Source of the DNA: Halopseudomonas litoralis
GTDB taxonomy: Bacteria > Pseudomonadota > Gammaproteobacteria > Pseudomonadales > Pseudomonadaceae
DNA: 64,000 bases
Assembly: GCF_900105005.1 (NCBI RefSeq)
Contig: NZ_LT629748.1
Location: forward strand, 2,480,001-2,544,000
Reading direction: 5' to 3'
Of the stretch, positions 11,935-32,980 are shown in pieces. The notes under the pieces are model-generated. The model saw only the letters and a program-made list of their open reading frames with translations, was not told the DNA's origin and made no database searches. Position 1 is the stretch's first letter, and the number at the start of each line of letters is the position of its first letter. The position numbers and the translations under genes are program-made.

Positions 11935-11950
11935 TCCATCCGCCTGACCA

Positions 11951-14100: not shown

Positions 14101-14151
14101 TGCATCACTCATTTATATTGGTTCCGATCCTTTGGTCTGGGTAATTACGTC

Positions 14152-15936: not shown

Positions 15937-16103
15937 AAGCTCTTCGCGAAATGGAATCAGGCCGGGAGTTTATCACAGCGCATCCGCCTATAACCCTAGC
16001 GTCACCACAGCAAGCAAAGGCCTCTGCCTGCCCAGAGCTATCACTGCACATGAAGCAAAATTGCAGTTACGGTAAACTACCGTTTTGTTTCAGGGTCGTG
16101 TCA

Positions 16104-16700
16104 ATGCAGCCACTCAGTAGGGAGCAATACGATATCTGGCGCACAGGCGCGCAGGTACTGGAAAAAGATGCCCACGGCGAAAAGGTCCTGCGCCTGGCCG
16201 ACGGCACCTTTCTCAAACTGTTCCGACGCAAAAGCTGGTTCTCCAAGACTGCATTCCACCCACCGGCCAAGCGTTTTGCAGAAAACGCGGCAGAGCTGCA
16301 GCGCCTCGGCATCCCCTGCCCGCACGTCATCCAGCTTTACCAGATGAGCGAGCCATACCGCTCCGTCGTACATTACGAGCCATTGGCAGGCGAAACGCTT
16401 CGGCAACTGATGAGCAACGACACCAGCCTCGACCAGCTTGAGCTCTTTGCCCGTCTGGCTGAATTCATCACCAAGCTGCATGACTTGGGGGTGTATTTCC
16501 GCTCGCTGCATATGGGCAATATCGTTCTGACACCCGACAACGAACTGGGCTTGATCGATATCTCGGACATGCGCTGCTTGGGCCGCCCCTTGTCCCGACG
16601 AATGCGGGATAGGAATTATCGACATTTGCTGCGCTATGAGAGTGACTGGAAGCGAGTGAACCCATATGTGGAGACCCTATTCATGTTCAACAAGAGGTGA
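16104..16700 (+). CDS. Small LPS/InaA-type kinase-like protein
   Basis: A 198-residue protein of the Kdo/WaaP kinase-like clan. The residual kinase motifs are FLKLFRR (possible ATP-binding Lys) near residue 38, FRSLHMGNIVL near 132 in place of the catalytic HxD loop (here His is kept but Asp is not obvious), and LGLIDISDM near 152 for the metal-binding Asp. The frame is open further upstream, but MQPLSREQYD at 16104 with an upstream AGGGT is preferred. It diverges from msbA, matching the position of an LPS-region kinase gene in P. aeruginosa. Activity is uncertain. Confidence 0.75.
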   Translation: MQPLSREQYDIWRTGAQVLEKDAHGEKVLRLADGTFLKLFRRKSWFSKTAFHPPAKRFAENAAELQRLGIPCPHVIQLYQMSEPYRSVVHYEPLAGETLRQLMSNDTSLDQLELFARLAEFITKLHDLGVYFRSLHMGNIVLTPDNELGLIDISDMRCLGRPLSRRMRDRNYRHLLRYESDWKRVNPYVETLFMFNKR

Positions 16701-16771: not shown

Positions 16772-17839
16772 TCATGCGGCACGTCTTTCCTTTTCTAATA
16801 ACTCCTCATGCAGATTGTCCGGGTTAAGCCAGACACTATCGATAGGTGTCCAGTTGCGTGTCGGGCGAGTTCTCCAGCGAGCCGGATTGGCCTGTTTCGC
16901 GGCTTCATAGACAGCAGTACGGCTGACCAGGATATCCCGGTCAAGGCCGACATGACGCTGCTCCGGCGTAACGAAGCGGATACCACTATGACGGTGCTCG
17001 GTGTTATACCAGCTCACGAAGCGCTGCACCCAGACACGGGCCTGGTCGATGTCCGCGAAGCGCTTAGCAGGATAGGCTGGACTGTATTTCAAGGTCTTGA
17101 ACATCGCTTCAGAATACGGATTGTCATTGCTCACCGATGGACGGCTGAACGAGGGCACCACACCCAGTTTTTGCAGTGTTGCCAGCATGGTGGCCCCTTT
17201 CATCGGGCTGCCATTGTCCGAATGCAGCACCAGCTGATCGCGGCGTATGCCATGACGTAGGCAGGCCTTGCTGATCAGAGTCGAGGCATGTGCTGAAGCC
17301 TCATTGTGGTGGATCTCCCAACCTACGATCATACGGCTGAAGATATCCATCACCAGATACAGACGGTAGAACTCTCCCTTCACAGCGGTCGGCAGGAACG
17401 TGATATCCCATGACCAAAGCTGGTTCGGTGCCGTAGCCACCCAGGCTTGCGGCTTTTCCAGGGTGCGTGGTGCGGCAGTCCGTCCACGGCGATGCGCCTG
17501 TTCATGCTCTCGCAGAACCCGGTAGAAGCTGGACTCACTGGCAATGTAGATGCCGTGGTCAGCCAACCGAGGAACAATCTGGCTGGGAGGCAAGCTCTGA
17601 TGTTCCGCGCTATTACACACAGCGAGAATCTGCTCCTTCTCCTGTGCGGTCAGGGCATGGGCGCTGCCCTTTCGGACAGCTCCTTTGCGCTGATCTAGCA
17701 GTGTCTCGCTGCGTTGCCAGCGGCGCAGCGTACGATCGGTCAGGCCGAGCACCCCACAGGCCAAGTGCTTGCGTGCACCTGCTTCTACCGCTTCGTCAAT
17801 CAAGGCAATGGCCATCTGTTTCATCGGCTCGGAGATCAA
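16772..17839 (-). CDS. IS3-family transposase OrfB (DDE integrase)
   Basis: A 355-residue transposase with an HTH-like N-terminus and an rve integrase core. The catalytic triad is visible as D in LWSWDITFL near residue 144, D in LVLHSDNGSP near 207, and E in NPYSEAMFKTLK near 244, with the usual 35-residue D-E spacing. The ATG overlaps the orfA stop by 4 bp (ATGA), so production seems to use coupled restart rather than the -1 frameshift of many IS3 elements. The gene looks intact. Confidence 0.92.
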   Translation of the reverse strand: MISEPMKQMAIALIDEAVEAGARKHLACGVLGLTDRTLRRWQRSETLLDQRKGAVRKGSAHALTAQEKEQILAVCNSAEHQSLPPSQIVPRLADHGIYIASESSFYRVLREHEQAHRRGRTAAPRTLEKPQAWVATAPNQLWSWDITFLPTAVKGEFYRLYLVMDIFSRMIVGWEIHHNEASAHASTLISKACLRHGIRRDQLVLHSDNGSPMKGATMLATLQKLGVVPSFSRPSVSNDNPYSEAMFKTLKYSPAYPAKRFADIDQARVWVQRFVSWYNTEHRHSGIRFVTPEQRHVGLDRDILVSRTAVYEAAKQANPARWRTRPTRNWTPIDSVWLNPDNLHEELLEKERRAA

Positions 17840-18348
17840 TCGTCCTCGCTGGTGCCCCAGATGGCCTGGGCTTTTTTTGACAGGGTCAGCAAGGCAGCCA
17901 CCTCCGCCAGGGCACGCTCCTTGCGCAGCAGTTCTTTTTCAAGCTTACGGCTCTTCTTGCGCTCTGCTGTCAGCTGCGCCTTGTCAGCCGGATGGCCGCC
18001 AGCATCCATACCCTCGAAGGCCTCCTTCCAGGCCTCCAGCTGCTCTGGGTACAGACCATGCTCACGACAATAGGTCGAGCGTTCGGCCTCATTCATGGAG
18101 GCGGTCTGGATGACCGCTGCCAGCTTGGCACGGGCATCCCAACGATCCGGGCTGGACGGTTTGGCTGGCACAACAAATCCTCTGGTCTGAAACTGCTTTT
18201 TCCAAGCATACAGCGTTGGCTCCGAAACACCGATCTCTCGGCTCAGATGGGCAACACTCTGATTATAGGGCGGCATCATCTTTCTGACGGTCTGCTCTTT
18301 GAATTCCGGGTTGTAACTGGGCACTGAATAAATCCGTCCGCCCCTCAA
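17836..18348 (-). CDS. IS3-family transposase OrfA (helix-turn-helix protein)
   Basis: A 170-residue first ORF of the insertion sequence. It has an HTH around residues 35-55 (LSREIGVSEPTLYAWKKQF) and a C-terminal heptad-rich coiled coil (LTAERKKSRKLEKELLRKER) typical of OrfA leucine-zipper regions. A GTG eight codons in (VPSYNPEFK) is an alternative start. It is directly upstream of orfB. Confidence 0.88.
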   Translation of the reverse strand: MRGGRIYSVPSYNPEFKEQTVRKMMPPYNQSVAHLSREIGVSEPTLYAWKKQFQTRGFVVPAKPSSPDRWDARAKLAAVIQTASMNEAERSTYCREHGLYPEQLEAWKEAFEGMDAGGHPADKAQLTAERKKSRKLEKELLRKERALAEVAALLTLSKKAQAIWGTSEDD

Positions 18349-18455: not shown

Positions 18456-19580
18456 TTAAGAATACAACGACGAAAGAACGGATAGGGACCTGTCCTCCTC
18501 AGCACACACATTTTTTGCACTATCAAGCGGATCAAAACCAACCCCGTCAAAGAAACTCTCATCAATTTCTTTTATTCGATCATAAACATAAAGATTAATA
18601 CCATAACACTCTTCTAAAAATAAATGATTCGGGGAATTTCTTCGAACCGCAATTCGACCTCTACCCCATTTGGCGAAAAGTCTGGCAGTGCTCGCGCCAC
18701 CACGGTCCTGAAGAATAAGGTGGGTACATGAAGCCAGCATTGCGTTATACATCTGCGGTGGCATTGGAGCCAAGTATGTTATATTAAACAAGCCGCGCCC
18801 TATAACTTTTTGATATGCTCTAAATACCTCGACAAGAAGCCTGCGCCTTGGATTAATGAAACAAAATAACTGAATATCGGGTGAACGTTGTTGGAAAACA
18901 GGATTTTTCAAAAACTTAAACAGCTTCTTCCACGAAAACCCCTTCGTTTCCACAAGCACTCGCGCACCGCCAGCACCATATTCAAGGTTCTCACAGAAGA
19001 CTCTGCGCATCATTTCAGAATAACAATGAGGAAGCACGTCGAAAATTATACTAGCATCAAAAAACTCAATATCGTTCCTATCAGAAATCTCACGTATTTT
19101 TTCGTGAAAATAAGCTTTCGGCGCAATAAAAAACTTAACCTGCTCAATAACAGAAATACAATCACCTGAAATATCCAATTTCAAGTCTTCTACCAGCCGA
19201 CCATTAACAGCATGGTTCTTTTTCCAGCGATCGACCTCATCGTCCGTAATAAAAATATAAATTTTTTCAAGAAATTCATCACTAGCGCTAATCAGACGCC
19301 TGACAACTGGAGAGTTCCATTTAGTCAAAGACATGAATGTCAAGCTTTTCGCCTTAGACAAGCTTTCAATTTCCACATCCGCATAATTGAAGTAGGAAAC
19401 ACCAGTTAACCTGGGTGAGTTTACTGGTTGCCTACCACTTTTCAATACAATTGACACAACTTTCTCAGCTGGCAAGCCAAGCTTTGAAATCAGCGCATCT
19501 CCAAAAAGGTAGAAGAAGCGGTCACGATCGCCAATGAAAAAGACATGTTTTCCTTCAAAGTCCATCAAACTGTTATCCAT
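18456..19580 (-). CDS. Putative Fuc4NAc transferase, WecF-like (GT56-like)
   Basis: A 374-residue protein without signal peptide, last gene of the rmlB-rmlA-acetyltransferase-wecE operon. It is diverged, but the N-terminal KHVFFIGDRDRFFYLFGDAL and a C-terminal region (YNAMLASCTHLILQDRGG, then GRGRIAVRRNSPNHLFLEEC) line up by eye with the start and the nucleotide-sugar-binding part of E. coli WecF, which transfers Fuc4NAc to a lipid-linked acceptor. The operon makes exactly that donor. The start at 19580 overlaps the wecE stop by 8 bp; starts at 19619 (GTG) or 19565 are possible. Codon use is AT-rich. The assignment is inference from weak similarity plus context. Confidence 0.55.
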   Translation of the reverse strand: MDNSLMDFEGKHVFFIGDRDRFFYLFGDALISKLGLPAEKVVSIVLKSGRQPVNSPRLTGVSYFNYADVEIESLSKAKSLTFMSLTKWNSPVVRRLISASDEFLEKIYIFITDDEVDRWKKNHAVNGRLVEDLKLDISGDCISVIEQVKFFIAPKAYFHEKIREISDRNDIEFFDASIIFDVLPHCYSEMMRRVFCENLEYGAGGARVLVETKGFSWKKLFKFLKNPVFQQRSPDIQLFCFINPRRRLLVEVFRAYQKVIGRGLFNITYLAPMPPQMYNAMLASCTHLILQDRGGASTARLFAKWGRGRIAVRRNSPNHLFLEECYGINLYVYDRIKEIDESFFDGVGFDPLDSAKNVCAEEDRSLSVLSSLYS

Positions 19581-20703
19581 AGAATGATAAAACGGCGTCA
19601 ACAATATACTTGAGCTCACACTGTGCTATGTTAAAAAACATCGGCAGTCTCACCAACCGCTCACTTTCGTTGGTAGTAAAGCGATCCTCGTCGTGAAACC
19701 GCCCGAATGACCTTCCGGCTTTTGCTGAGTGTAGCGGCACATAATGAAATGCCCCAAGAATGTCCCGGCTTTTGAGGTGTTCAAGCAAAGCAGTACGCTC
19801 GCTCAGACCGGACGTTTTCAGATAGAACATGTGAGCGTTGTGCTTGCAATCTACAGGAATTGTGGCAAGGGTAACACGCCCTTCTAGCACCAGCGGCTGC
19901 AGTTGTTGCCAGTAATACTGCCAACTATTCAGTCTCGTTTCGTTGATCTCGGTTGAGTGCTCCAGCTGGGCCCACAGGTATGCTGCCTGCAGTTCACTGG
20001 GTAGATAGCTGCTGCCTATATCAACCCATTGGTACTTGTCTACCATCCCTCGGAAGAACTGGTTCCGGTTAGTTCCCTTCTCTCGTATTATCTCTGCACG
20101 CTCTGTAAACTGTTCATCGTTGATAATCAGCAAGCCGCCTTCACCGCCACTGGTGTAATTCTTAGTTTCATGAAAACTGAACGCCCCCAAATGACCAATC
20201 GTTCCCAGAGCGCGGCCTTTGTAGGTGCTCACCATCCCTTGGGCAGCATCTTCAATTACGTAGAGGTTGTGGCGCTCGGCAATGGCCATAATACTGTCCA
20301 TCTCACAGGCGACACCCGCATAGTGAACAGGTACGATAGCTCGCGTTTTGGGGGTAATCGCAGCCTCGATCCGATTTTCGTCAATATTCATGGTATCTGG
20401 TCGAATATCGACAAACACGATCTTTGCACCACGTAACACGAAGGCATTTGCCGTGCTCACGAAAGTGTAGCTCGGCATGATGATCTCATCGCCGGGCTGT
20501 GTGCCGATCAATACTGCAGCCAGTTCCAATGCCGCGGTGCACGACGGGGTCAGGAAAGTTTTTCTGGCTGGCAGATTGGCCTCGAACCAGTCCTGGCATT
20601 TCTTACCGAAAGGGCCATCGCCAGACAGTTTATTACTTATCAGCGCCTGCTTGATATATTGCTCTTCTGCACCTGTAACAGGGGGCTTGTTAAACGGGAT
20701 CAT
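19573..20703 (-). CDS. wecE: dTDP-4-amino-4,6-dideoxygalactose transaminase
   Basis: A 376-residue PLP-dependent sugar aminotransferase of the DegT/DnrJ/EryC1 family that converts dTDP-4-keto-6-deoxyglucose to dTDP-Fuc4N with glutamate. The PLP lysine motif FHETKNYTSGGEGG near residue 176 and the opening IPFNKPPVTGAE are almost those of E. coli WecE. VIEDAAQGM supplies the ring-stacking Asp. It overlaps the acetyltransferase gene by 4 bp (ATGA), so the two are coupled. The substrate is made by RmlA and RmlB encoded upstream. Confidence 0.92.
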   Translation of the reverse strand: MIPFNKPPVTGAEEQYIKQALISNKLSGDGPFGKKCQDWFEANLPARKTFLTPSCTAALELAAVLIGTQPGDEIIMPSYTFVSTANAFVLRGAKIVFVDIRPDTMNIDENRIEAAITPKTRAIVPVHYAGVACEMDSIMAIAERHNLYVIEDAAQGMVSTYKGRALGTIGHLGAFSFHETKNYTSGGEGGLLIINDEQFTERAEIIREKGTNRNQFFRGMVDKYQWVDIGSSYLPSELQAAYLWAQLEHSTEINETRLNSWQYYWQQLQPLVLEGRVTLATIPVDCKHNAHMFYLKTSGLSERTALLEHLKSRDILGAFHYVPLHSAKAGRSFGRFHDEDRFTTNESERLVRLPMFFNIAQCELKYIVDAVLSFYG

Positions 20704-21263
20704 GCTTGCTGCTCTTTAAGAAATTGTGCTTCGAGTTCCAACAAATCCTGTTTTCGGTCTTTGATTCTGCGCATAGGACTGCCTGCGTAAATACCCCACG
20801 GCTCGGTGCTTTTACTAATCAGCGTCATAGCACCGACTGAACATCCTTCCCGAACCGTCACCCCCGGGAAGATGATCGACCCAGCACCAACGATTACTTG
20901 TCTTTCCAGAATGACTTCGGCCAGATATTCGTTTTTAAACTTCTTTGGAATCAGAGAGTTCGCCATCGCAGCGCCGCTGTAATCATCAGACTGAGCAAAA
21001 ACCTTGACCCCGTAAGCTAAGGTGCAGAAGTCCGCAAGCTTTACACCTGGAGAACCACCAGCAACCAGGCACATCGGAGTAATATGACAATATCTCCCAA
21101 TCGATACCTTCCCTGACAGAATACAGAAGTCGTCGATCCGCGAATGGTCACCTAAGACGATGGTTCCAGGATTATAGATACTCGCTTTATCGCTAACTTT
21201 TACGTTTTCACCTACAGCTTTGAACCCCACCGCCTGTAGCTGCTCTTTGGTTAAATAAGCCAT
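20700..21263 (-). CDS. Left-handed beta-helix sugar N-acetyltransferase
   Basis: A 187-residue hexapeptide-repeat acyltransferase. Repeats such as SIGRYCHITPMCLVAGG and VGAGSIIFPGVTVREGCSVG predict a beta-helix, and the C-terminal GIYAGSPMRRIKDR is typical of these trimeric enzymes. Its place between rmlA and wecE suggests it N-acetylates dTDP-Fuc4N to dTDP-Fuc4NAc. E. coli uses an unrelated GNAT enzyme, WecD, for that step, so this would be a non-orthologous replacement. O-acetylation of another sugar is the main alternative. Confidence 0.8.
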   Translation of the reverse strand: MAYLTKEQLQAVGFKAVGENVKVSDKASIYNPGTIVLGDHSRIDDFCILSGKVSIGRYCHITPMCLVAGGSPGVKLADFCTLAYGVKVFAQSDDYSGAAMANSLIPKKFKNEYLAEVILERQVIVGAGSIIFPGVTVREGCSVGAMTLISKSTEPWGIYAGSPMRRIKDRKQDLLELEAQFLKEQQA

Positions 21264-21264
21264 C

Positions 21265-22146
21265 CTACCCCTCCGCCCTAACCAAAGCGCTCAAATATTC
21301 ACCGTAGTTATTCTTTTGGAGCTGTTTGGCCTGCTGTTCAAGTTGCTGTCTAGTCAACCAACCACTGTTATAACCAATCTCTTCAAGACAAGCGATTTTA
21401 TAACCTTGACGCTTTTCAATGGTTGCCACAAATTGCGCAGCCTCAAGCAAGCTTTCATGGGTGCCAGTATCCAGCCAGGCAAATCCTCTCCCTAATAGGT
21501 TGACGTTTAACTCACCTTTTTCCAAATACGCTCGGTTTACGTCTGTAATTTCCAGCTCACCACGAGCTGATGGTTGAACAGCTTTGGCAATATCGACCAC
21601 CTTACTGTCGTAAAAATACAAACCGGTTACCGCAAAGTGTGATTTTGGTTTAGAGGGCTTTTCTTCGATAGAGATAGCTTTCTGAGCACTATCGAACTCC
21701 ACTACGCCGAAACGTTCCGGGTCTTTAACCTGGTACCCGAACACTGTTGCCCCGCCCAGCTCTTCAACTTGATTCACAGCCTCGTGGAGTTTGGGAGTAA
21801 ACCCCTGCCCGTAAAAGAGGTTGTCGCCCAGTACCAGACAAACGCTGTCATTACCGATGAACTCTTCTCCAATGATAAAAGCCTGAGCGAGACCATCCGG
21901 GCTTGGCTGAACCTTGTAGCTAAGATTGATACCAAATTGTTCACCGTTGCCAAGCGCACGTTGGAAGCCAGACTGATCTTCTGGGGTGGTTATGATGAGA
22001 ATATCGCGGATGCCTGCCAGCATGAGTACGGACAGCGGGTAGTAGATCATGGGCTTGTCGTACACCGGCAGGAGTTGTTTTGAGATGCCGAGTGTTATGG
22101 GGTACAGGCGGGTTCCGGAGCCGCCCGCAAGTATTATTCCTTTCAC
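21265..22146 (-). CDS. rmlA: Glucose-1-phosphate thymidylyltransferase
   Basis: A 293-residue nucleotidyltransferase that makes dTDP-glucose from dTTP and glucose 1-phosphate. The signature [11 protein letters not shown] opens the protein, and [25 protein letters not shown] and [13 protein letters not shown] follow in the family order. Full length. It lies one base from the acetyltransferase gene and 54 bp from rmlB. RmlC and RmlD are not encoded here, so in this operon the product feeds Fuc4NAc rather than rhamnose. Confidence 0.96.
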
Positions 22147-22200
22147 TTTTACTTCCTTGGCCTAGTTCGGCTGAAGTTGATTTGGTTGCGAGGAGGCTGT

Positions 22201-23346
22201 CTACGCAGGGACAGCTCCCCTCTCATCGTTGGGGCCCTTCGGAGAATCTGGCTTTGACACTCCGAGGCGTTCGCGTTGGTAGCTGCCGTCTTGTACTCGT
22301 TGGCACCAGTCGCGGTTAGCCAAGTACCACAACACAGTTTTTTGGATGCCAGACTCGAAAGTTTCTTCGGGCACCCAGCCCAACTCCCGTTGGATCTTGC
22401 TTGCATCGATGGCATAGCGGCGATCATGGCCGGGCCGATCCTGGACGAAAATGATTTGATCGCGATAAGAACTATCCTTGGGCAACAGGTGTTGAAGGAT
22501 ATCGCAGATGGTCTGCACTACCACGATGTTCTGTTTCTCATTGTGGCCACCGATATTGTAGGTTTCACCCGTTTTGCCTTCCGTAAGAACTTTGTACAGC
22601 GCCCTTGCATGGTCATCAACGTAGAGCCAATCGCGAATCTGGTCGCCCTCGCCGTAAACGGGTAGGGGTTTGCCCTCGATGGCATTGAGAATCACCAGTG
22701 GTATGAGCTTTTCCGGGAAATGGTACGGACCATAGTTATTGCTGCAGTTGGTGATCAAAACCGGCAGGCCGTAAGTCCTTTGCCAAGCGCGGACCAGGTG
22801 ATCCGAACTGGCTTTGCTCGCTGAATATGGGCTGCTGGGAGCATAGGGAGTTTGCTCTGTGAACAGGAAGGGCTCCTCCCCCTCCCTCCCTCCCTCTACA
22901 AAAGCACCGAGATGTGTGGGATAGGGCAGATCCCCATACACCTCGTCTGTGCTGATGTGGTGGAAACGGAATCGGACTCTCTCTGCAGGCGCAAGCGTCT
23001 GCCAATACTGGCGGGTCGATTCCAGCAATGTGTAGGTACCCACGATATTTGTCTGGATGAAGTCAGCAGGACCATCGATAGAGCGATCTACATGGCTTTC
23101 GGCTGCGAGATGCATAATGGCGTCGGGTTGGTGTTTGGCCAATACATGGTCTACTTCCGCACGGTCACAGATGTCCACCTGCTCGAAACTGTAACGCTCG
23201 CTGGCGCTTACCTCGGCCAGGCTTTCCAGATTGCCGGCGTAGGTAAGCTTGTCGAGGTTAATTACTTCATTATCAGTGTTGTTTATGATGTGGCGAATTA
23301 CGGCGGAGCCTATGAAGCCGGCACCGCCGGTTATTAGTAGTTTCAT
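22201..23346 (-). CDS. rmlB: dTDP-glucose 4,6-dehydratase
   Basis: A 381-residue short-chain dehydrogenase-type enzyme making dTDP-4-keto-6-deoxyglucose. The NAD motif GGAGFIGSA, the STDEVYGDL loop and the catalytic Tyr-Lys in [11 protein letters not shown] are all present. The ATG at 23346 is chosen because a GAGAAAAA precedes it and the protein then begins MKLLITGG as in the family; the frame is open six codons further. The C-terminus carries a charged tail beyond the usual end (about 25 residues). It is the first gene of the leftward sugar operon. Confidence 0.96.
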
Positions 23347-23405
23347 TGAGTTTTTCTCAAACATGATCTGCCGTACGTTTGAACACGCCTTGTTGACGAG
23401 GCCGT

Positions 23406-23588
23406 CTAAAAACCAAGATAGCGAGTATTTTCTCTTATAGAATCAAAACGTTCATGCAAGAACACGATTAAAGATGGCCACTCGTCATAGGTGAAAGCAT
23501 ATCCACCTGGACGCCCTCCTGCAACGGCTCCGTCTGTGTCGAACAAAGCGGCCACCCCACCACCAGCGACATCGGGGCGTTCACCCAT
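23406..23588 (-). other. Short open frame of unknown origin upstream of rmlB
   Basis: A possible 60-residue product, MGERPDVAGGGVAALF at the start and [15 protein letters not shown] at the end, just before rmlB. The frame stays open for another 50 codons upstream, but that part runs antisense to an IS66 remnant and so is not a gene. The remaining piece reads like coding sequence (YAFTYDEWPSLIVFLHE) and may be the 3' end of a gene truncated by the IS66 insertion. I recognise no family. Confidence 0.2.
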
Positions 23589-23640
23589 ACGGAGATCGTA
23601 GCCAGAGAAAATGGGGTCACAATGCGTGATTCGGCAACCT

Positions 23641-23776
23641 CGTGAAGAGGCGGGTTTTGTATTGGACTGGCTGTACGTGCCGACCCGGCTGCCGACGCAG
23701 CGGTGCAGCGCCATCGACGAGCTACTGCCCCACCATTGCAAGCCAGCTACGCCTAGCGTGATGGCCGGACACTTAC
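23641..23776 (+). mobile_element. 3' remnant of an IS66-family element
   Basis: The plus strand encodes EEAGFVLDWLYVPTRLPTQR followed by CSAIDELLPHH, which matches the extreme C-terminus of IS66-family transposases (an LTRLPTHP...IDELLPHRW pattern). It is followed at 23757-23776 by CGTGATGGCCGGACACTTAC; its complement, GTAAGTGTCCGGCC..., resembles the GTAAGCGTC-type terminal inverted repeat of IS66 elements. Only the last 30 or so codons and the right end survive; the 5' part is gone. It lies between the two divergent sugar operons. Confidence 0.65.
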
Positions 23777-23781
23777 CAATA

Positions 23782-23810
23782 TTGCCCGGGATACCCGACC
23801 TGACTACAAT
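23782..23810 (+). promoter_or_regulatory. Candidate sigma-70 promoter of the neuB operon
   Basis: TTGCCC (23782-23787) and TACAAT (23805-23810) are separated by exactly 17 bp and lie about 130 bp upstream of neuB on the same strand. The -35 box begins only 5 bp beyond the IS66 end, so the promoter lies at the edge of the mobile-element scar. Seen by consensus only. Confidence 0.4.
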
Positions 23811-23942
23811 GTGCAGACTAGCTTCGCTACAGGCGTGAGCACAGAATCACAGGCTCCTTCCGCAGGCCTAGCGCGAGATCTCTTCGTGCCACGGTAAACT
23901 TTAGCAAGAGCACTCTAAACACCACCCAGTGATAGGCCCATC

Positions 23943-24992
23943 ATGAATCAACCTTTCATCGAAATAGCAGGAAGAAAAATCGGCAACGACTTTCCTCCGC
24001 TTGTTATAGCGGAAATTGGAATAAACCATGAAGGAAGCCTTCAGACTGCATTCGACATGGTGGATGCAGCTCATGCAGCCGGTATAGAAGTAGTAAAACA
24101 TCAGACACACGTCGTGGATGATGAGATGTCCGGAGCAGCGAAAAAGGTTATTCCAGGTAACGCAAATGTCTCCATATTTGAAATCATGGAACGCTGCGCC
24201 CTATCGGAAAGCGACGAGATTAAGCTCAAGGAGTACGTTGAAGCAAAAGGCATGATCTTCATCAGCACCCCTTTTTCTCGGGCAGCAGCAAACCGCCTGG
24301 CTAAAATGGATGTGCCAGCTTTCAAGATCGGCTCGGGCGAGTGCAACAACTATCCGCTACTGAAGCACATTGCTGGTTTTGGAAAACCCGTCATTCTGAG
24401 TACCGGGATGAATGATATTGAAAGTATCCGCAAGGCCGTCGATATTTTTTCCCAGGCGGGCGTCCCACTTGCCCTGCTCCACACCACAAATCTCTACCCA
24501 ACCCCACCGGAACTGGTTCGCCTGGGTGCGTTAGAAGAAATGATGCGCGAGTTCCCTGAGGTGGTTATGGGGCTATCGGATCACACCATTTCCAACCATG
24601 CGTGTTTTGCAGCCGTCGCTCTGGGCGCATCAATTCTGGAGCGGCATTTCACCGACAGAATGGATCGTCCAGGTCCGGACATAATCAACTCCATGGATCC
24701 CGGCGCCGCGTCAGAACTGATCGAAGGCTCCGAGCTGATATGGAAAATGCGAGGCGGTAGCAAAAAGGCAGCTCCAGAAGAAGCAGTCACAATAGACTTT
24801 GCCTTCGCGAGTGTCGTAAGCATCAAGGATATTGAGAAAGGCCAGGTCTTTACCGAAGAAAACATCTGGGTCAAGCGGCCCGGCACCGGAAAAATTCTCG
24901 CCGAACACTATGAGTCCCTTATCGGAAAAAAAGCCAGCAGGACGCTCGCGGCAGATGAGCAGTTGAGCTGGGACGATATCGTAAATGACTAA
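23943..24992 (+). CDS. neuB: N-acetylneuraminate (sialic acid) synthase
   Basis: A 349-residue enzyme condensing ManNAc with phosphoenolpyruvate to give Neu5Ac. The TIM-barrel shows [11 protein letters not shown] near residue 22, [14 protein letters not shown] near 127, ILSTGMND and the [14 protein letters not shown] loop near 179, then GLSDHT. A C-terminal SAF (antifreeze-like) domain covers about residues 285-345. Legionaminate and pseudaminate synthases are relatives, but their extra pathway enzymes (LegB/C/H, PseB/C/H) are missing here while a NeuC-type epimerase is present, favouring Neu5Ac. First gene of the operon; the next gene overlaps by 8 bp. Confidence 0.9.
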
Positions 24993-26130
24993 GAGAATAT
25001 TATTTATCTCTGGCACCCGGGCTGACTTTGGAAAGATAAAGCCCCTGATAAAATCTGTTCAAGATTCCGATGCTTTTAAGTATGGGGTTTTTGTCACCGG
25101 CATGCATTTGATGTCAAGATACGGACTAACTGTAAACGAAATCAAAAAGTCCGGGTTTGACCAGATCCATACCTATATAAATCAGATACCGGGAGAGGAT
25201 ATGGAATCCATCCTGGCTAACACTATAACCGGGCTGAGTCGCTATCTACATGAGCATCAGTATGATCTGATTGTAGTGCACGGCGATAGAGTCGAAGCCC
25301 TGGCGGGCGCAACCGTGGGCGCTCTCAGAAATATTCTTGTCGCTCACATCGAGGGTGGGGAAGTCTCTGGGACAATTGACGAACTGATGCGACATGCAAT
25401 TACCAAGATGTCACATATACATTTCGTAGGGAGCGATACGGCACGAAAAAGGCTAGTACAGCTGGGTGAGAATCCCACCAGCATTTTCACCATCGGATCC
25501 CCGGATATCGACGTCATGCTCTCGGACAGCCTGCCCGATATAAATGATGCCAAAAAACGATATGACATCCAGTTTGACAACTTTTCGATCGCCATGCTGC
25601 ACCCGGTTACGACATTACCTGAACTACAAGCCCAACACGCCAATATCTTTGTCGATAGCCTGATCAAGAGCGATTTGAACTATATCGTTATCTACCCAAA
25701 CAATGATGCGGGATCAGAAAATATTCTACAGGCGTATAAAAGACTGGAAGGGAGGGCGAACTTCAGGGTTTTCCCCTCATTACGCTTCGAGTACTTTCTA
25801 GCTTTGCTGAAAAAATCAAAATTCATAATTGGAAATTCAAGCGCCGGAATTCACGAAGCCCCGGTGTACTCAGTACCAACAGTTAACGTCGGCGAGAGGC
25901 AACACAACCGCATCAAACACTCCAGTGTTTATAATGTGGACTTTAAAGAAGTGGATATTCTGGAGGCAATTTCGAGCCTGCCTGCCACCAAGAATTCCCC
26001 TCCACTATTCCATTATGGCAATGGCGACAGCGCAGCCAAGTTTATGGAAGCGCTCGGAGATGATGGGCTTTGGACTAGGTCCCGGCAGAAATACTTTCAA
26101 GACATTGAGTTCGACAATGATAAACGGTAA
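24985..26130 (+). CDS. neuC: UDP-N-acetylglucosamine 2-epimerase (hydrolysing)
   Basis: A 381-residue enzyme that converts UDP-GlcNAc to ManNAc and UDP, supplying NeuB. Family landmarks are [14 protein letters not shown] at the start, [13 protein letters not shown] near residue 92, [14 protein letters not shown] near 115, a GSPDID turn near 171 and [14 protein letters not shown] near 283 for UDP binding. Full length. It overlaps neuB by 8 bp and neuA by 14 bp, so the three enzymes are translated as a coupled set. Confidence 0.92.
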
Positions 26131-26818
26131 ACGAATCCTGGCGCTTATCACCGCGCGGGGCGGCTCCAAAGGTATCCCAAACAAGAACATTAAACCCTTG
26201 AATTCCAAGCCCTTGCTCGCCTGGACAATTGAGGCGGCAAAAAAGTCCAAATATGTCGACAGGCTTGTCATATCTACAGACAGCCCCGAAATTGCGGATG
26301 TGGCCCGTTCTTTTGGTTGCGAAGTACCTTTTGTCAGGCCAGCCAGCCTGGCCCAAGACAATACGTCGAGTATGGACGTGATAGCTCATGCGCTCGATAA
26401 CCTAGAGGAGAGCTTTGATTACCTCTTGCTGTTGCAACCAACATCCCCGTTTCGTACGACCTACCAGATAGACGAATGCACCTTTCAAGCAGTGACTAAT
26501 GCTACGCCCATACTCGTTTCCGTCTCGGAATGTCACTCTCATCCAAGCTTTGTTTACACTCTGGAGGGGAGTAAGCTCCAGCCCGAATCAGGAAAAGTTT
26601 CGAAGCAGCTTAGGCGACAAGACCTACCCGCGACCTATGAGCATAACGGATCACTATACGTAGCGGATATCAACTATTTGAGATTGCACGAAAGTTTCAA
26701 CACCCCCGACACTGAGGCTTATATAATTAACGGCTACACCGCTATTGATATCGACACCCCGGATGACTGGACAATGGCTGAACTTATTGCTTTGGGACTG
26801 GAAAGACAGAACGCATGA
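26117..26818 (+). CDS. neuA: CMP-N-acetylneuraminate cytidylyltransferase
   Basis: A 233-residue CMP-sialic acid synthetase that activates Neu5Ac with CTP. The nucleotide-binding motif LITARGGSKGIPNKN is near the N-terminus, followed by LVISTDSPEIAD, LLLQPTSPFR and a C-terminal GYTAIDIDTPDDW. The frame is open far upstream inside neuC, but [10 protein letters not shown] at 26117 is the only start that gives the normal NeuA N-terminus. The product would feed the adjacent putative sialyltransferase. Confidence 0.93.
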   Translation: MINGKRILALITARGGSKGIPNKNIKPLNSKPLLAWTIEAAKKSKYVDRLVISTDSPEIADVARSFGCEVPFVRPASLAQDNTSSMDVIAHALDNLEESFDYLLLLQPTSPFRTTYQIDECTFQAVTNATPILVSVSECHSHPSFVYTLEGSKLQPESGKVSKQLRRQDLPATYEHNGSLYVADINYLRLHESFNTPDTEAYIINGYTAIDIDTPDDWTMAELIALGLERQNA

Positions 26819-27828
26819 GTACGGTATCAGTATACTTTGTCAAAACAGAGCTGGAATTACTTTCCTCGGAAATAATATCTCAGTCTTTTGAGCTCGAAAG
26901 CTACAATATACTGGCGTATCAGTCATCAGTTTCTCATAAGCCGGCCAAGCCGATCTTTGACGTAGCGATTCCGTTCACCAGCGCTAGCGCTAAAAGCTAC
27001 TTTTCCACGCACAAGTCAATACAGAATAGCTTAATCCAGATAGCAGAACGCATAAAATCCTATTCAACAAAACCAACGCAAATAAAAATCCATCTGCCGC
27101 GCATATCCACCTCGAAGTCCAACTTTTCCATCAACTACTTTAGCAAGATGTTTCCTTTCTCTGAAGTAATGATATGTATAATTCCCCATGGATTGATTAG
27201 CATAGACATCATCCCCCTCCCCCTTAAAAAGCGGCTGAAATTTCTCAAAAGAACCTGGGGGATAAACTCAATACTTTTCCCGAAACTGAGGTATTACTCG
27301 CCAAAGACTGATCTGATCGGAATATTAGATAAGAAGGTAAGGTATATTTACACATTCAAAGGAATGGAAAGCAATTACCCAAGCGACAAAGTACGCTTGT
27401 TGGAGGTGCCGGTCGGCGGGGCGCGCAACGATGGCAAAAAAGTAGCCGTAGTAGTAGGTCAGCCATTGCTCAAAGACGGATTTGCCACTGAAGAATCGGT
27501 TGAGCTAATCACGAAAGAGATCCATAGCTGGATTAAAGAAAACCACTTTGAGGCTGTATTTTACAGCAAGCATCCCCGGTCGTCAGATTACCTGGATTTT
27601 TATTGCGATGACTACGTCATCCTGGAGCAGAATGGTGCGATTGAACCTCTGCTTTGTGAAATACAGCCATACGCTATCATTTCCTGTTACAGCACAGCCC
27701 TAGCAATTGGCAAGTCGCTTCTCGGGAATAACGTGAGGTGTGTCTCCATCGGTTTGGATCATACTAATACGGACAAAAAAAGCGAGCTACGAGCGCATTT
27801 CCAGAAAGCCGATATAGAATACTGGTAA
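26815..27828 (+). CDS. Putative sialyltransferase (GT52/polysialyltransferase-like)
   Basis: A 337-residue protein with no signal peptide, overlapping neuA by 4 bp (ATGA) and ending the neu operon. It carries features seen in bacterial sialyltransferases of the GT52 and polyST clans: VVVGQPLLKDG near residue 212, an HP motif in FYSKHPRSS near 249, and a Ser/Thr motif in SCYSTALAIGK near 290. PHGLISIDIIP near 124 may line the acceptor side. By context it would move Neu5Ac from CMP-Neu5Ac to LPS or another surface glycan. Codons are strongly AT-biased compared with the core genes. Acceptor and linkage cannot be read from sequence. Confidence 0.6.
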   Translation: MSTVSVYFVKTELELLSSEIISQSFELESYNILAYQSSVSHKPAKPIFDVAIPFTSASAKSYFSTHKSIQNSLIQIAERIKSYSTKPTQIKIHLPRISTSKSNFSINYFSKMFPFSEVMICIIPHGLISIDIIPLPLKKRLKFLKRTWGINSILFPKLRYYSPKTDLIGILDKKVRYIYTFKGMESNYPSDKVRLLEVPVGGARNDGKKVAVVVGQPLLKDGFATEESVELITKEIHSWIKENHFEAVFYSKHPRSSDYLDFYCDDYVILEQNGAIEPLLCEIQPYAIISCYSTALAIGKSLLGNNVRCVSIGLDHTNTDKKSELRAHFQKADIEYW

Positions 27829-27849
27829 ACAGCTGCGCTCGGACATTAC

Positions 27850-28557
27850 TTACTTCGCTAACAGGGTTTGGTCACTTAGCCCTAGCTCTACAAAACAGTG
27901 GTCAAACAGCTTGCAAGCATCGTCTACTGAAAAATTATTGTCCCGTATACCTTTTACAAAAAATGCGTTGTCTTTCAAGGCATTCCGGTCTACCGAGCCC
28001 ACTGGTACCACCCCAACCGTCATATTCTCTAGACCATTTTGCTTACAAATATGATTTAGTATCGTCATCCGATGATGGCCGTCAATATAATTAAATATTC
28101 GCCCGTATTCAGGGTGGGCCAGATAATAGCCTCTAATGGCTCCGCCTTTCTTTGGTTTGTATCCGTTCTTCCGGATGGATTCGTACACATCGAAAAACCC
28201 GTTAATTTTTTTCCGAGCGCGGGCTTCCAGATCATGGCTATCCTTCTGAGAGCGATCTTTACCAGGGATAACCGCCCATGGCATCACCCACCATTCTGGG
28301 ATACGCGTCAACCCTTCGGGAAGAGCACTGAAGTTATCGGTCAACTTCCGGTCTCGGCAGACCATTATTTGAAAATAGCTTGTGCTCCTCCAATCGAACC
28401 CCTCTCGGCCATACTCATCATATTTTCTTAATAGTTCGGCATGTGGCAATTCGGTGCTGCGAGCCAGATTCTTACCAATCATTCTGCTTAGCGGGAACTG
28501 TTCAGAAGCCGCGCATGTCCGGTAGTTATAATAAGCCCTTTTTAATCCCTTCAACAC
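27850..28557 (-). CDS. Protein with ParB-like DGHHR motif, function unknown
   Basis: A 235-residue protein with a GTG start preceded by a near-perfect Shine-Dalgarno AAAGGAGG at 6-base spacing, unusually strong for this island. The only recognisable element is NYIDGHHRMTIL near residue 157, like the dGhHR motif of ParB/sulfiredoxin-fold domains that bind or hydrolyse nucleotides. Related single-domain proteins appear in surface-polysaccharide islands, but no role is established. It is convergent with the sialyltransferase gene (21-bp gap). Confidence 0.6.
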   Translation of the reverse strand: MLKGLKRAYYNYRTCAASEQFPLSRMIGKNLARSTELPHAELLRKYDEYGREGFDWRSTSYFQIMVCRDRKLTDNFSALPEGLTRIPEWWVMPWAVIPGKDRSQKDSHDLEARARKKINGFFDVYESIRKNGYKPKKGGAIRGYYLAHPEYGRIFNYIDGHHRMTILNHICKQNGLENMTVGVVPVGSVDRNALKDNAFFVKGIRDNNFSVDDACKLFDHCFVELGLSDQTLLAK

Positions 28558-28739: not shown

Positions 28740-30161
28740 CTACCGCGGGAGCCTGTCGTCCAGCCACATCGCCAATTTGCTGTCGGCAGGCCAATTACGC
28801 ACAAAGCGCACGCGGTCCTTGGCCCAAGCCTTAGGCCATTTCGCATCGTTTCCATGCGCCTGCATCGCATCCAGATCAATCAACACTACCCGCCCGTCAT
28901 ACCACAACAGATTAGTCGCTTTGAAATCACCATGACTGATTCGCGCCTCAGCCAGCTGCTTGAAGGTGCGCAGCATTGCATCGGCCGTCTGCTTAACAGG
29001 AATGGCGTCACCCGCCTCTCCCAGATGCTCGAGGAGGTTCTGTCCTGGGCAGTACTCGGTAATCAGCCAGGCCTCTCGACGCAACAGTCCGATCCGCCGC
29101 TCTATCATGGCCAGCGGCTGCGGAGTGGCGATGCCGAGAAAGCTCAGGCGCCAGCCGGCCAGCCAGGAGTGCCATGCGCGACTGGGGCGCCAGAAGCGTT
29201 TCAGCCAATGCCCGAGACCCTTGATGTTGTAGCGTTTGATGACGACGTCACGACCGCCGATGGTGGCGCGGGTGACCGTGCTGCTGCCGCCGTCCTTTAG
29301 CAGTGGTATGCCTGTGAAGACGCTGTCGGGGTCGGCAAGTAGCGGTGCCAGGGCTTCCTGTTCGGAGCGCAATACTACGCTGTAACGCTGAAAGGTTTTG
29401 GTGACGGCGAATTGGCTGCAGTCGCGTAGTGTTTTGCTCAGAAAATCGTCCAACCGCCGCTGGCGCTCTGCCCGAATGGCTGCATTCAATTGCTCTCTAT
29501 CTAACTCCGGCAGCGGATTAATGACCAGATAACTCTGCAGCAGGGAGTCGATTTGTTTATCCCATTGCGGCTCAAGCTGGGCGAAGAACAGCGCCAGGTT
29601 GGTTTTCACAGCACTCTGGCGTAACGGCTTTCCGGGGTCGGTCACCTCAATGGCGTCGCCATCAATTACATAGATCTGCTGCTCGTGCTGCAGAAAGTTG
29701 CCGAGATGCAGGTCAGTTTGCGCCAGCCCCTGTTTGTGCATGGCAGCAATGGCCTGCAATGCCTCCTCAAGGATGGCAGTGGCGGCTGGGCTGCCCAGTC
29801 CTGTATCCGCGAGCTGATCCCAGCATTGTTGCAGGCTCTGCGAGCCTGCCAGGAATTCAGTAAGCAGATAGTAGCCCCCACCGGGCAGGTCGCCGCTGGC
29901 CAGCAGGTCCGGGGTGGGCTGGCCGGCACGCTGTAATGCTTGAATGCCGGCGCTTTCCCGTTGCCAATGGCGTTCGGCCCCTGTGGCGATGAACAGTTTG
30001 GCCAGCACTCGCTGGTCCTGCCACTCACCCTGCCCGACCAATCGTTTGCCCGGCAGCACACGCAGCCATTGCTGAATGGTCAGCGGTTCGCCGTCAAGCT
30101 GTACGCTCAGTGGCGCCGGAGGATGACGGCCGGCATCACGCAGTCTGGCTGTGGTGCTCAT
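28740..30161 (-). CDS. LPS core kinase-like protein with two kinase domains
   Basis: A 473-residue protein of the WaaP/InaA kinase clan with two copies of the fold. The first has AQTDLHLGNFL near residue 148 and IYVIDGDAIE near 167; the second has VVIKRYN near 307, ISHGDFKATNLLWYDG near 411 and VLIDLDAM near 430, so both catalytic Asp loops survive. Homologues are encoded next to the WaaP kinases in P. aeruginosa and are linked to phosphorylation of inner-core heptose. It overlaps the next gene upstream by 4 bp and ends the waaG operon. Confidence 0.85.
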   Translation of the reverse strand: MSTTARLRDAGRHPPAPLSVQLDGEPLTIQQWLRVLPGKRLVGQGEWQDQRVLAKLFIATGAERHWQRESAGIQALQRAGQPTPDLLASGDLPGGGYYLLTEFLAGSQSLQQCWDQLADTGLGSPAATAILEEALQAIAAMHKQGLAQTDLHLGNFLQHEQQIYVIDGDAIEVTDPGKPLRQSAVKTNLALFFAQLEPQWDKQIDSLLQSYLVINPLPELDREQLNAAIRAERQRRLDDFLSKTLRDCSQFAVTKTFQRYSVVLRSEQEALAPLLADPDSVFTGIPLLKDGGSSTVTRATIGGRDVVIKRYNIKGLGHWLKRFWRPSRAWHSWLAGWRLSFLGIATPQPLAMIERRIGLLRREAWLITEYCPGQNLLEHLGEAGDAIPVKQTADAMLRTFKQLAEARISHGDFKATNLLWYDGRVVLIDLDAMQAHGNDAKWPKAWAKDRVRFVRNWPADSKLAMWLDDRLPR

Positions 30162-30904
30162 TCGCGCCCCTCGAAAAATGCCAATACGGCTCTGATGCGT
30201 TTTTTATCGGCTGCTGTCAGACGCTGACGTTGCGTATACGCCAGATAAAATCGCAATCGATCCACACGCCGCAGGTGATATTTGCCCAACTTGTCGAGAC
30301 AGGCCAGGTCTTTGACGATGCGGTAATGCAGCAGCGGGCCCGGCCATTTTCTGCCAGCGGGGCAATCGATGAAATAAACCTGTGGGGATGCCGCGCGGTC
30401 GACCAGGATGTTGCGCCACTTGAGATCATTATGGGCAAATCCATGCTCATGCATGATCCGCGTGCCGCGCGCCACCTGGGCGATGACTGCATCAAGCCAA
30501 CTCCGATCGCGCAGGCGCAGACCCTTGTGCTTGGCCAGGTGCGCCAGGTCATCGGTGTCGTCGATGCCCAATGTGATCAGCGCGCCCCGACCAAAGCCCA
30601 GGCCGGAGCGCTCCATGCCATAAGCCACTACCGGTACTGTCGGGATGCCCCAGCGCTGGAATTTGAGCAGGTTTTCCCACTCGGCGCGTATCCGCGGACG
30701 GCCGATGAACCGACGCAGGTTCTTTCCTGCTTCGACATAACGCTTGATGTAATAGCAGCGTCCGTCCATGCAGAACCGGTGCACTTCACTGATGTCGTCA
30801 GTGGTGATGCTCTCCCCTTGCAAGGCAAATACGCTGGGTAGATCAGCAAACAGCTGTCCCGCTTCCCCGTCCGCAAAGGCGGGGTTGAGTACCCAGGTCT
30901 TCAT
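30158..30904 (-). CDS. Lipopolysaccharide core heptose kinase-like protein (WapP-like)
   Basis: A 248-residue kinase of the WaaP clan. Visible motifs are CYYIKRYVEAG with the ATP-binding Lys near 54, FAHNDLKWRNILVD with the catalytic Asp near 160, and VYFIDCPAG with the metal Asp near 180. Its position just after waaP and the length match the WapP-type kinase of Pseudomonas LPS core operons. ATGA overlaps tie it to both neighbours. Phosphorylation of a core heptose is inferred from family and context. Confidence 0.85.
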   Translation of the reverse strand: MKTWVLNPAFADGEAGQLFADLPSVFALQGESITTDDISEVHRFCMDGRCYYIKRYVEAGKNLRRFIGRPRIRAEWENLLKFQRWGIPTVPVVAYGMERSGLGFGRGALITLGIDDTDDLAHLAKHKGLRLRDRSWLDAVIAQVARGTRIMHEHGFAHNDLKWRNILVDRAASPQVYFIDCPAGRKWPGPLLHYRIVKDLACLDKLGKYHLRRVDRLRFYLAYTQRQRLTAADKKRIRAVLAFFEGRE

Positions 30905-31716
30905 TGCGGCTTGCCGGGTGCATATTTACGCTCGAAGCGCGTCTGCAGCCGTGCCGCCTTGCGCTCCAGCATGCTCAGCAGGACCGCCTCTTCTGCCAGG
31001 ATCTGGCGCAAGGGGCGCTGGAAATAGGTGCGCAGGAAGCGCAGTTTGTCGCGCTCGGTGAGGCCGATATTCAGTGCCGAGAAATACAGCCCCGCCAGAT
31101 CCTTGTCGCGCCAGCGGCGTGGAACAGCAGGTCGAATCTGCGCGCGGTGCAGATCGATCAGTGACAGTTTCAGGTTGTCCGCGGTCGGCTCGCTGTCGGT
31201 ATGCAGCAGGAAATGGCAGATGTAACAATCGCGGTGATTGACGCCGGCACGGTGCATACGCCCGGTCATGTCTGCCACTCTGTGGATCAGCGCGTGCTTC
31301 AGCGCCGGCTCCGGCGGGTGACTCGGCCAGTTGTGGCTGAGGTCTTCCAGGCTGATGGTTGGAGCGAGCTCCTCGGTAATGATGAAGGAATGCCGGTTGG
31401 CAGGATTGCCACCACGCTCACCAAAGGCGACGGCGGTCATGGTTGGCACGCCGGCCTCGGTCAACGCCGCGATGGCTTCCCATTCCTGATCAGCGCCGAG
31501 CACCGGCTTTTTCAAGGTGGACCAGTTCTTGAGTATCTCAGCCCAGCCCACTCCGCGGTGGATCTTGACGAAGTAGCCCCGCCCGTCCACTTCAGTGCGC
31601 AGGGTACGCCGCGCTTCAAGTTCCCGGAATACTTCGCCCTGGAGCTTCTCTACCTCGACAAAGGCGTCCCGACCAGCCCACAAGGTCTTGAAAGGCTCCT
31701 TCAGCACCAGCGTCAC
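30901..31716 (-). CDS. waaP: Lipopolysaccharide core heptose(I) kinase
   Basis: A 271-residue cytoplasmic kinase that phosphorylates heptose I of the inner core; in P. aeruginosa WaaP this is needed for LPS export. GYFVKIHRGVGW supplies the ATP-binding Lys near residue 51, and GVNHRDCYICHFLL carries the catalytic Asp at residue 163, the same number reported for P. aeruginosa WaaP. LSLIDLHRAQ follows with the metal-binding Asp. It overlaps waaG and the following kinase by 4 bp each. Confidence 0.95.
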   Translation of the reverse strand: MTLVLKEPFKTLWAGRDAFVEVEKLQGEVFRELEARRTLRTEVDGRGYFVKIHRGVGWAEILKNWSTLKKPVLGADQEWEAIAALTEAGVPTMTAVAFGERGGNPANRHSFIITEELAPTISLEDLSHNWPSHPPEPALKHALIHRVADMTGRMHRAGVNHRDCYICHFLLHTDSEPTADNLKLSLIDLHRAQIRPAVPRRWRDKDLAGLYFSALNIGLTERDKLRFLRTYFQRPLRQILAEEAVLLSMLERKAARLQTRFERKYAPGKPQ

Positions 31717-32834
31717 GCCAACTCTCCCAGAATCACATCGGCCGCCCGTTCCGGCATGCTGTAGAGGTCAGCATGCTCGGCGTAATCCAATGCATTTTCC
31801 TGCCATTCCCGGCGTGTTTCCGGATCATCCAGAATGCGCGCCAGCCATTCATTCAAGGTCTTCTGTTCAAAAGGATGCGGCACCACCAGGCCGCAATCGG
31901 CCTCTTCAATGTAGTGGGCGTAGCCGCACGCTTCGGTCGTCAGCACCGGCAAGCCGGCGACCAGCGCTTCGAGCAGGACGGTACCGGTATTTTCATTGTA
32001 GGCAGGATGGATCAGCAGATCGGCGCCCAGCAAAAAGCGCGGCACGTCATCGCGTCCTGCCAGTATCTGTACCCGGTCCGACAGGTTCAGAGTGCGAATC
32101 TGGCGCTGGAAGGGTGCCGGGTTATCCGCGCCGATCACGATCAACCGGGTACGCTGACGCAGCGCCGTCGGCAGCGCAGCAACGGCTTCCAGGGTCCGAT
32201 CCAGCCCCTTGGTCTTGAAGCCGGAACCGATCTGTACCAGCAGTAATTCATCGTCGGTCAGGTTGAATTCTTTCCGCAGGTCGGCACGAATCTCGGCGGC
32301 ATTGGCCGGTGCACGGCGATCAGTGGTGATGCCTGGCGGCAGCAGGTGAAAACGTTCGATCGGGGTGCGGTAATGCTGCATGAACAGCGGCAGCTGTACT
32401 TCAGAGATCATCAAAATCTCGGTGCGCCCTTCCGGCGCAAACACGGCACGTTCAGCGCTTGAGAAGTGTCGATAGCGTGGGCCGAACTGGTAGAGCCAGT
32501 TGCGCTGATTCTGCGCCTTGTCTTCATAACAGCCGTCGGCGGCATAGTAGACATCCAGGCCCGGCATTTTGTTGAAACCCACTACGCGGTCAACCGGATC
32601 ACGGGCCAGATCAGCCCGCACCCATTTGGAAAATTTCTCGTTGCGGCTATGGTTCGACAAGGCCTTGACTGGCACCAGCCGTATATCCCACCCGCTCGGC
32701 CGCTCCCCCTCCCACTCCATGACATAGACACGCACAGCATGCCCACGCTGCTCGCAGACCCGCGCAATGCGCAGAAAATCCCGCTGCAGACCACCGAAGG
32801 GAAAATATTTGTAGAGCAGAAAGGCCAGTTGCAT
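31713..32834 (-). CDS. waaG: UDP-glucose:(heptosyl)LPS alpha-1,3-glucosyltransferase
   Basis: A 373-residue GT4 (GT-B fold) glycosyltransferase that adds the first outer-core hexose. The start at 32834, MQLAFLLYKYFPFGGLQRD, is chosen because it matches WaaG N-termini and has GAGAG upstream; an ATG four codons earlier also exists. The C-terminal donor-site motif HPAYNENTGTVLLEALVAG includes the Glu pair typical of GT4. It heads the leftward operon waaG-waaP-kinase-double kinase. waaC and waaF, its usual upstream partners, are not here. Confidence 0.95.
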   Translation of the reverse strand: MQLAFLLYKYFPFGGLQRDFLRIARVCEQRGHAVRVYVMEWEGERPSGWDIRLVPVKALSNHSRNEKFSKWVRADLARDPVDRVVGFNKMPGLDVYYAADGCYEDKAQNQRNWLYQFGPRYRHFSSAERAVFAPEGRTEILMISEVQLPLFMQHYRTPIERFHLLPPGITTDRRAPANAAEIRADLRKEFNLTDDELLLVQIGSGFKTKGLDRTLEAVAALPTALRQRTRLIVIGADNPAPFQRQIRTLNLSDRVQILAGRDDVPRFLLGADLLIHPAYNENTGTVLLEALVAGLPVLTTEACGYAHYIEEADCGLVVPHPFEQKTLNEWLARILDDPETRREWQENALDYAEHADLYSMPERAADVILGELA

Positions 32835-32980
32835 CAGGACTCTCATTGTAGGTCTTGCTGAATGGCAAGGCCCGTGGATGGCCAGCCAGTGAATCTCCGC
32901 CTATAACGGAGGGTGATAACTCAGGTGCAAAGATTGGCGAGTTTAACACAGGTCGGCAACTGCCCGGCAGCATGCAACCA

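Follow-up and report, generated by a model that had tools for sequence, protein, structure and literature searches.

The window analyzed here is a 64,000-nucleotide stretch of the Halopseudomonas litoralis genome (contig NZ_LT629748.1, positions 2,480,001 to 2,544,000 of the forward strand). It contains a cassette of four overlapping genes that most likely directs the synthesis of a sialic acid, N-acetylneuraminic acid (Neu5Ac). The cassette occupies 23943-27828 (+) and begins with neuB (23943-24992, 349 aa), for an N-acetylneuraminate synthase, followed by neuC (24985-26130, 381 aa), for a hydrolyzing UDP-N-acetylglucosamine (UDP-GlcNAc) 2-epimerase; neuA (26117-26818, 233 aa), for a CMP-nonulosonate cytidylyltransferase; and a gene for a putative sialyltransferase of the PF07388 family with a predicted GT-B fold (26815-27828, 337 aa). 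All four lie on the forward strand, with successive overlaps of 8, 14 and 4 bp. A mechanical list of open reading frames (ORFs) puts the neuA start at a TTG at 25829, within neuC; the ATG at 26117 is taken instead. The Pfam matches of the first three proteins are NeuB (PF03102, 224 bits) together with SAF, Epimerase_2 (260 bits), and CTP_transf_3 (PF02348, 95 bits). An earlier note on this DNA had described the same four genes, and its positions and overlaps all hold by coordinates and Pfam. The ORFs are not chance: across 200 single-base shuffles of the stretch, none of the three forward frames stayed open for more than 206 codons.

The cassette lies in a lipopolysaccharide (LPS) core locus. 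One border of the variable core interval is formed by hldE (12658-14112, −; model score 773.6 bits, cutoff 521) and msbA (14152-15936, −; 810.7, cutoff 602). The opposite border is the inner-core block at 28740-32846, which comprises waaP (30901-31716, −; 446 bits, cutoff 170), a family 4 glycosyltransferase (GT4) gene in the waaG position (31713-32846, −), and two more genes for Kdo (3-deoxy-D-manno-oct-2-ulosonic acid)/WaaP-family kinases (30158-30904 and 28740-30161, both −). The setting between hldE-msbA and waaG-waaP that had been proposed earlier is thus borne out by the HldE, MsbA and WaaP scores and the position of the GT4 gene. The G+C content of the cassette is 47.1%, as against 59.3% in 1-16700 and 59.0% in 28740-64000. 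The JUMPstart/ops octamer is not in any leader; copies are found at 24753 (+, within neuB) and 7905 (−).

The sugar made by NeuB, NeuC and NeuA

Compared with PDB chains, NeuB scores 483 bits with 1xuu, an N. meningitidis-type SiaC/NeuB, and 129 bits with the pseudaminate synthase 8h2c. According to the excerpts of PMC7371886, position 184 of nmNeuB is Asn or Tyr in neuraminate (Neu) synthases, Tyr in legionaminate (Leg) synthases and Ser in pseudaminate (Pse) synthases, while a second active-site position separates Neu and Leg synthases, with Gly, from Pse synthases, with Phe. In an ungapped NeuB-1xuu alignment, the Gly/Phe column is nmNeuB 133; the excerpted text writes 132. The window's NeuB has N184 and KIGSG, i.e., the Neu type, and the same residues are present in the synthases of the two further cassettes described below (loci L003 and L004), while the synthase of a relative, L084, has Ser and KIASF. 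NeuB-family genes, 18 in all, occur in 17 of 37 genomes of the genus. Only the window's synthase combines Asn with KIGSG; 15 of the 18 have Ser with KIASF, and the remaining two, whose frames are 643 aa long, have Ser but do not match the search pattern. A PseI identity was also tried for the window's synthase and rejected, with a score of 216.7 against a cutoff of 340.25 and differing active-site residues.

NeuC scores 405.9 with TIGR03568 (cutoff 235.9). Whole-chain scores do not split GlcNAc epimerases from those acting on N,N′-diacetylbacillosamine (diNAcBac), because the diNAcBac epimerase 5zlr (199.6 bits) and the GNE chain 4zht (187.5 bits) score nearly equally. The GGE motif, however, reads over 10 residues as in 4zht, whereas 5zlr reads GGEITEGAYD. 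Sinorhizobium meliloti and Alistipes each have a plasmid-borne neu locus with the same NeuB residues and NeuC motif, except that Alistipes has Leu in place of Val. NeuA does not discriminate between sugars, since its top PDB matches are the CMP-Neu5Ac synthetases 6ifd and 1eyr, but its best NCBIfam model is PseF, below the cutoff. Taken together, the NeuB and NeuC residues make Neu5Ac the most likely product, in agreement, as far as sequence tells, with the sugar named in the earlier note.

The fourth protein

The fourth protein scores 29.4 bits with PF07388 (A-2_8-polyST), above the gathering cutoff of 23.3. Membership in glycosyltransferase family GT52 was rejected, the PF07922 score being 16.8 against a cutoff of 26.1. 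Of the original label "GT52/polyST-like", the second half therefore stands and the first does not; the match to a non-sialyl glycosyltransferase family that had been named as a refuting outcome did not occur, given PF07388 and the predicted fold. In a structural second look at the predicted model, solved sialyltransferases fill rows 1-23 of 50, and the best match is a bacterial polysialyltransferase. The predicted GT-B fold thus appears nearest to solved sialyltransferases, less clearly so in Foldseek's own order. GT52 chains are missing from the fold matches listed, which has no bearing on the fold itself.

Both the HP motif (H253-P254) and a Ser-Thr pair (S293-T294), whose roles we take from the excerpts of PMC5517516, are invariant in the family alignment. 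The same excerpts describe a D/E-D/E-G motif conserved in bacterial polysialyltransferases. At the aligned place, the window's protein reads P124-H125-G126, and Pro-His-Gly is found there in 18/18 aligned family members. The alignment and the predicted secondary structure would place H125 at the position of the catalytic base. As a change of a single residue, it lends itself to a clear-cut test of how sialyltransferases work.

Distribution and the msbA-waaP interval

A scan of genome contigs found two further loci, in Alloalcanivorax mobilis (L003) and Pseudomonas lopnurensis (L004), the latter species also belonging to the Pseudomonadaceae. In both, the order is neuB-neuC-neuA-sialyltransferase, and the surrounding LPS core locus includes waaG- and waaP-like genes. 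A pyruvyltransferase-like gene stands beside the cassette in each (L003 11040-12185; L004 5933-7108), and none was seen in the window; the L004 protein scores 72.6 bits with PF04230, and its L003 counterpart is 47% identical. The transferase itself is rare. Of the 58 genomes in the sample of relatives, only the window's own has it, and no copy was found in the 36 others of the same genus. Across the family, 2 of 398 genomes have it (that of the window and one of the P. lopnurensis type), as do 3 of 369 genomes of the class, two of these being weak partial matches (35.6 and 19.4 bits). For PF07388 overall, 37 of the 390 genomes scanned in the order have a match, which exceeds the cutoff in 31. 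Neu neighborhoods do not carry over to this wider family, since neuA/neuC-like sequence lies beside PF07388 genes in only 2 of 32 loci tested, most of which hold about 1.5 kb on each side; the two are the window's and that of P. lopnurensis. Among 18 homologs of the transferase, six apparently share a genome with a NeuC relative (120 NeuC relatives listed), which suggests that the two genes travel together. Plasmid or phage carriage of the transferase gave no tblastn match, and E. coli neu genes used as DNA queries gave no match.

The earlier note had regarded such a cassette as unusual in a Pseudomonadaceae LPS locus. This is true of the Neu5Ac type, given the family-wide count of the transferase, but not of a nonulosonate pathway as such. 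WaaP was found in 36 of 37 genomes of the genus (the window's own included), and for the 35 relatives among them the interval was compared over at most 20 kb running from waaP toward msbA. In 12 of the 35, the sequence ends before msbA, either at a contig end (L064, L072, L089, L092, L096) or at the limit of the 20-kb reach (L066, L069, L073, L081, L082, L090, L091). When the L084 proteins were used to search the relatives, 10 of the 36 proved to have PseB, PseC and PseI grouped in the interval (G036, G015, G032, G012, G018, G033, G006, G034, G002, G019); PseF was matched in 6 of these and PseG in all 10, at 27-30% identity outside L084. The L084 proteins exceed the model cutoffs for PseI (502), PseC (552), PseB (554) and PseF (300), with PseG under its cutoff (141, cutoff 153.6); the other nine operons are assigned by tblastn alone. 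In addition, G016 has PseB and PseC followed by a contig end, G029 has a Pse set beside msbA-hldE with waaP about 90 kb off, and G007, G024 and G022 have Pse genes elsewhere in the genome. Neither neuC nor the transferase was matched within the relatives' stretches, L063-L099. With pseudaminate operons at this place in 10 of 36 relatives, an acidic sugar is ordinary here in the genus, and the sialic acid version is the oddity. The same locus with Pse or Neu5Ac provides natural pairs for testing the effect of acidic-sugar choice.

WaaL-like genes were found by profile in 14 of the 37 relative stretches, as well as in L003 and L004. None was found in the window or the 10 Pse slots, and one is present in L099, a Pse stretch counted as partial. 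We draw no rule from WaaL, because A. mobilis and P. lopnurensis have it together with the cassette.

Within the window, the cassette's neighbor on the msbA side is a dTDP-4-amino-sugar cassette on the reverse strand (18456-23364), with rmlB (22201-23364), rmlA (21265-22146), a hexapeptide acetyltransferase gene (20700-21263), wecE (19573-20703) and, at its end, a gene for a GT-B-fold orphan of 387 aa (18456-19619). The orphan has no match in Pfam or NCBIfam. Its AlphaFold model is GT-B-like, and it has 19 other homologs, the named ones from Marinobacter, Oceanimonas, Vibrio and Aliivibrio; it is perhaps a member of an undescribed glycosyltransferase family. An IS3-family transposase pair (16772-18348, −) lies at the island edge, and the larger IS3 protein has two partial matches, at 89-91% identity, in the genome's second polysaccharide locus (L062). 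The 578-bp gap 5′ of neuB (23365-23942) holds an opposite-strand ORF of 111 aa (23406-23741) that may be a remnant of a lost gene. Convergent with the cassette is a gene for a 235-aa protein with a DGHHR stretch (27850-28557, −), for which there was no family match and no tblastn match in the relatives' stretches.

Product, acceptor and known systems

We propose, with a probability of roughly 70%, that the four genes are a horizontally acquired, self-contained sialylation cassette that makes Neu5Ac and caps the LPS core with it. NeuC would hydrolyze UDP-GlcNAc to N-acetylmannosamine (ManNAc), NeuB would condense ManNAc with phosphoenolpyruvate to give Neu5Ac, and NeuA would activate Neu5Ac to CMP-Neu5Ac. 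The fourth protein, as a PF07388 GT-B sialyltransferase, would then add Neu5Ac to the nascent LPS core while this still faces the cytoplasm, ahead of flipping by MsbA. Between msbA and waaP, the cassette takes up an outer-core position that in relatives holds a pseudaminate operon or other genes for the outer core. Acquisition from outside is suggested by the low G+C content and the absence from 36 relatives. Genomic position points to the LPS core as the acceptor, and the lack of Kps genes suggests that Neu5Ac is added as one capping residue and not as a polymer. A bolder version, against which we judge the odds to lie somewhat, is that whole nonulosonic acid modules are exchanged at the msbA-waaP interval of this genus (Pse in many relatives, Neu5Ac here), and that the Neu5Ac module brings a PF07388 branch in which His125 replaces the Glu/Asp base, and which thus caps the LPS core instead of polymerizing.

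Several findings weigh against the proposed sialylation of the core. NeuB is ~8 bits short of the TIGR03569 (NeuB_NnaB) cutoff (391.9, cutoff 399.65); the P. lopnurensis NeuB scores 392.3. The residue rule for NeuB comes from a small set, and the Gly/Phe position is called mostly, not strictly, conserved in the excerpts of PMC7371886. The best NCBIfam score of NeuA, 171.8 for PseF, is under a cutoff of 205.7. The fourth protein clears the PF07388 cutoff by only 6 bits, PDB searches with it as a single sequence and as a profile returned no sialyltransferase, and it lacks the D/E-D/E-G catalytic-base motif. In Foldseek's own order, sialyltransferases take 4 of the 50 rows listed, the first at rank 6, and 5wc6 (MhPST) is not included. 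The cassette is transcribed in the direction opposite to the core operon, and 23300-28000 holds 5 promoter-like sites against a shuffle mean of 6.3 (terminator-like sites: 7, mean 5.0).

A further point against Neu5Ac is a possible UDP-diNAcBac route elsewhere in the genome, from which NeuC and NeuB could make legionaminic acid instead. The absence of Leg- and Pse-specific enzymes claimed in the earlier note applies to the cassette itself, but the stretch C1:1.942-2.002 Mb encodes a protein that we label WbpM-like (PF02719, 412 bits; PseB model 158, below the cutoff), an aminotransferase (PseC model 224 and LegC model 190, both below the cutoff) and a NeuD/PglD-class acetyltransferase (225, cutoff 160.8). 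Because of these genes, legionaminate had to be argued against by residues: NeuB 184 is Asn and not the Tyr reported for Leg synthases, and the NeuC motif is of the GNE type, even if the whole-chain NeuC score is as near to the diNAcBac epimerase. Furthermore, no aminotransferase in the whole genome reaches the LegC cutoff (188 and 173, cutoff 420), the neighboring rmlB, the one protein scored with the LegB model, falls below its cutoff (110, cutoff 475), and P. lopnurensis, which bears the same cassette, has no NeuD-class acetyltransferase over the cutoff, in a genome of unstated completeness; A. mobilis has one (209.4). In favor of legionaminate, a more remote PF07388 homolog that shares the Pro-His-Gly motif (L037 1393-2439) adjoins LegB and is perhaps a legionaminyltransferase. 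On balance, legionaminic acid seems an improbable product.

If Neu5Ac is the product, it could still be transferred to an exopolysaccharide, an O-antigen unit or a protein. Position is the sole link to LPS, the genes run opposite to the core operon, and the genome has a second polysaccharide locus and, elsewhere, one Wzy_C/O-antigen-ligase-family protein among GT4 genes. However, the neighbors scanned (11.3-32.8 kb) include no recognizable gene for a flippase, a polymerase or capsule export, the cassette lies in the LPS core locus of two other species too, and the slot in relatives has other nonulosonate or glycosyltransferase genes; we therefore consider an acceptor other than the core rather unlikely. 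That the fourth gene encodes a polymerase building a polysialic acid capsule is highly improbable. The PF07388 family name, the top second-look structural match, and the neuABC genes of Sinorhizobium pSymB, which adjoin a gene of the polyST family and an ABC exporter of the capsule type, all favor a capsule. By contrast, the motif conserved in those polymerases (PMC5517516, excerpts) is lacking, and PF05159 (KpsC/S) is matched in 0 of 3 cassette genomes, with completeness stated for the window's own only, versus 2 of 14 control genomes.

Sialic acid is best known from animal cell surfaces, and bacterial Neu5Ac has mostly been studied as host mimicry by pathogens. A member of the Pseudomonadaceae that makes and attaches its own Neu5Ac, if confirmed, would raise the question of purpose, whether surface charge, phage receptors or hosts. 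We found no paper on sialic acid in Halopseudomonas or nonulosonic acid in Stutzerimonas, and nothing on such a cassette in the titles and abstract openings of papers on Alcanivorax and sialic acid. Sialic acid on a Pseudomonas surface is not new as such, since P. aeruginosa, according to a review (excerpts of PMC9631793), takes up Neu5Ac without de novo synthesis and is listed as having it in LPS. What this analysis adds is the comparison of the slot across relatives, the occurrence of the cassette in two more species, the lack of capsule genes and the Pro-His-Gly motif.

Among known systems, sialylation of lipooligosaccharide (LOS) by the GT52 enzymes Neisseria Lst and Haemophilus LsgB likewise has a dedicated GT-B sialyltransferase capping a short LPS core. 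Unlike those enzymes, the window's protein fails the GT52 model, and its sugar genes lie within the core locus. It differs from GT38 polysialyltransferases such as MhPST in having Pro-His-Gly for D/E-D/E-G, with KpsC/S not found in the three cassette genomes. The neuA-neuB-neuC-polyST set of S. meliloti pSymB has the same four functions, overlapping genes, and the same NeuB and NeuC motifs, but another gene order, an adjoining capsule-type ABC exporter, and Glu-Glu-Gly at the transferase motif. The same-genus pseudaminate operons share the msbA-waaP slot and a nonulosonate pathway with the cassette; they differ in sugar and enzymes (PseB/C/F/G/I in L084) and do not have its transferase. Finally, the LOS of Loktanella rosea carries neuraminic acid on the core Kdo, according to the excerpts of PMC3210612. 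This marine bacterium, an Alphaproteobacterium in which the structure is known, resembles what we propose in having neuraminic acid in its LPS core.

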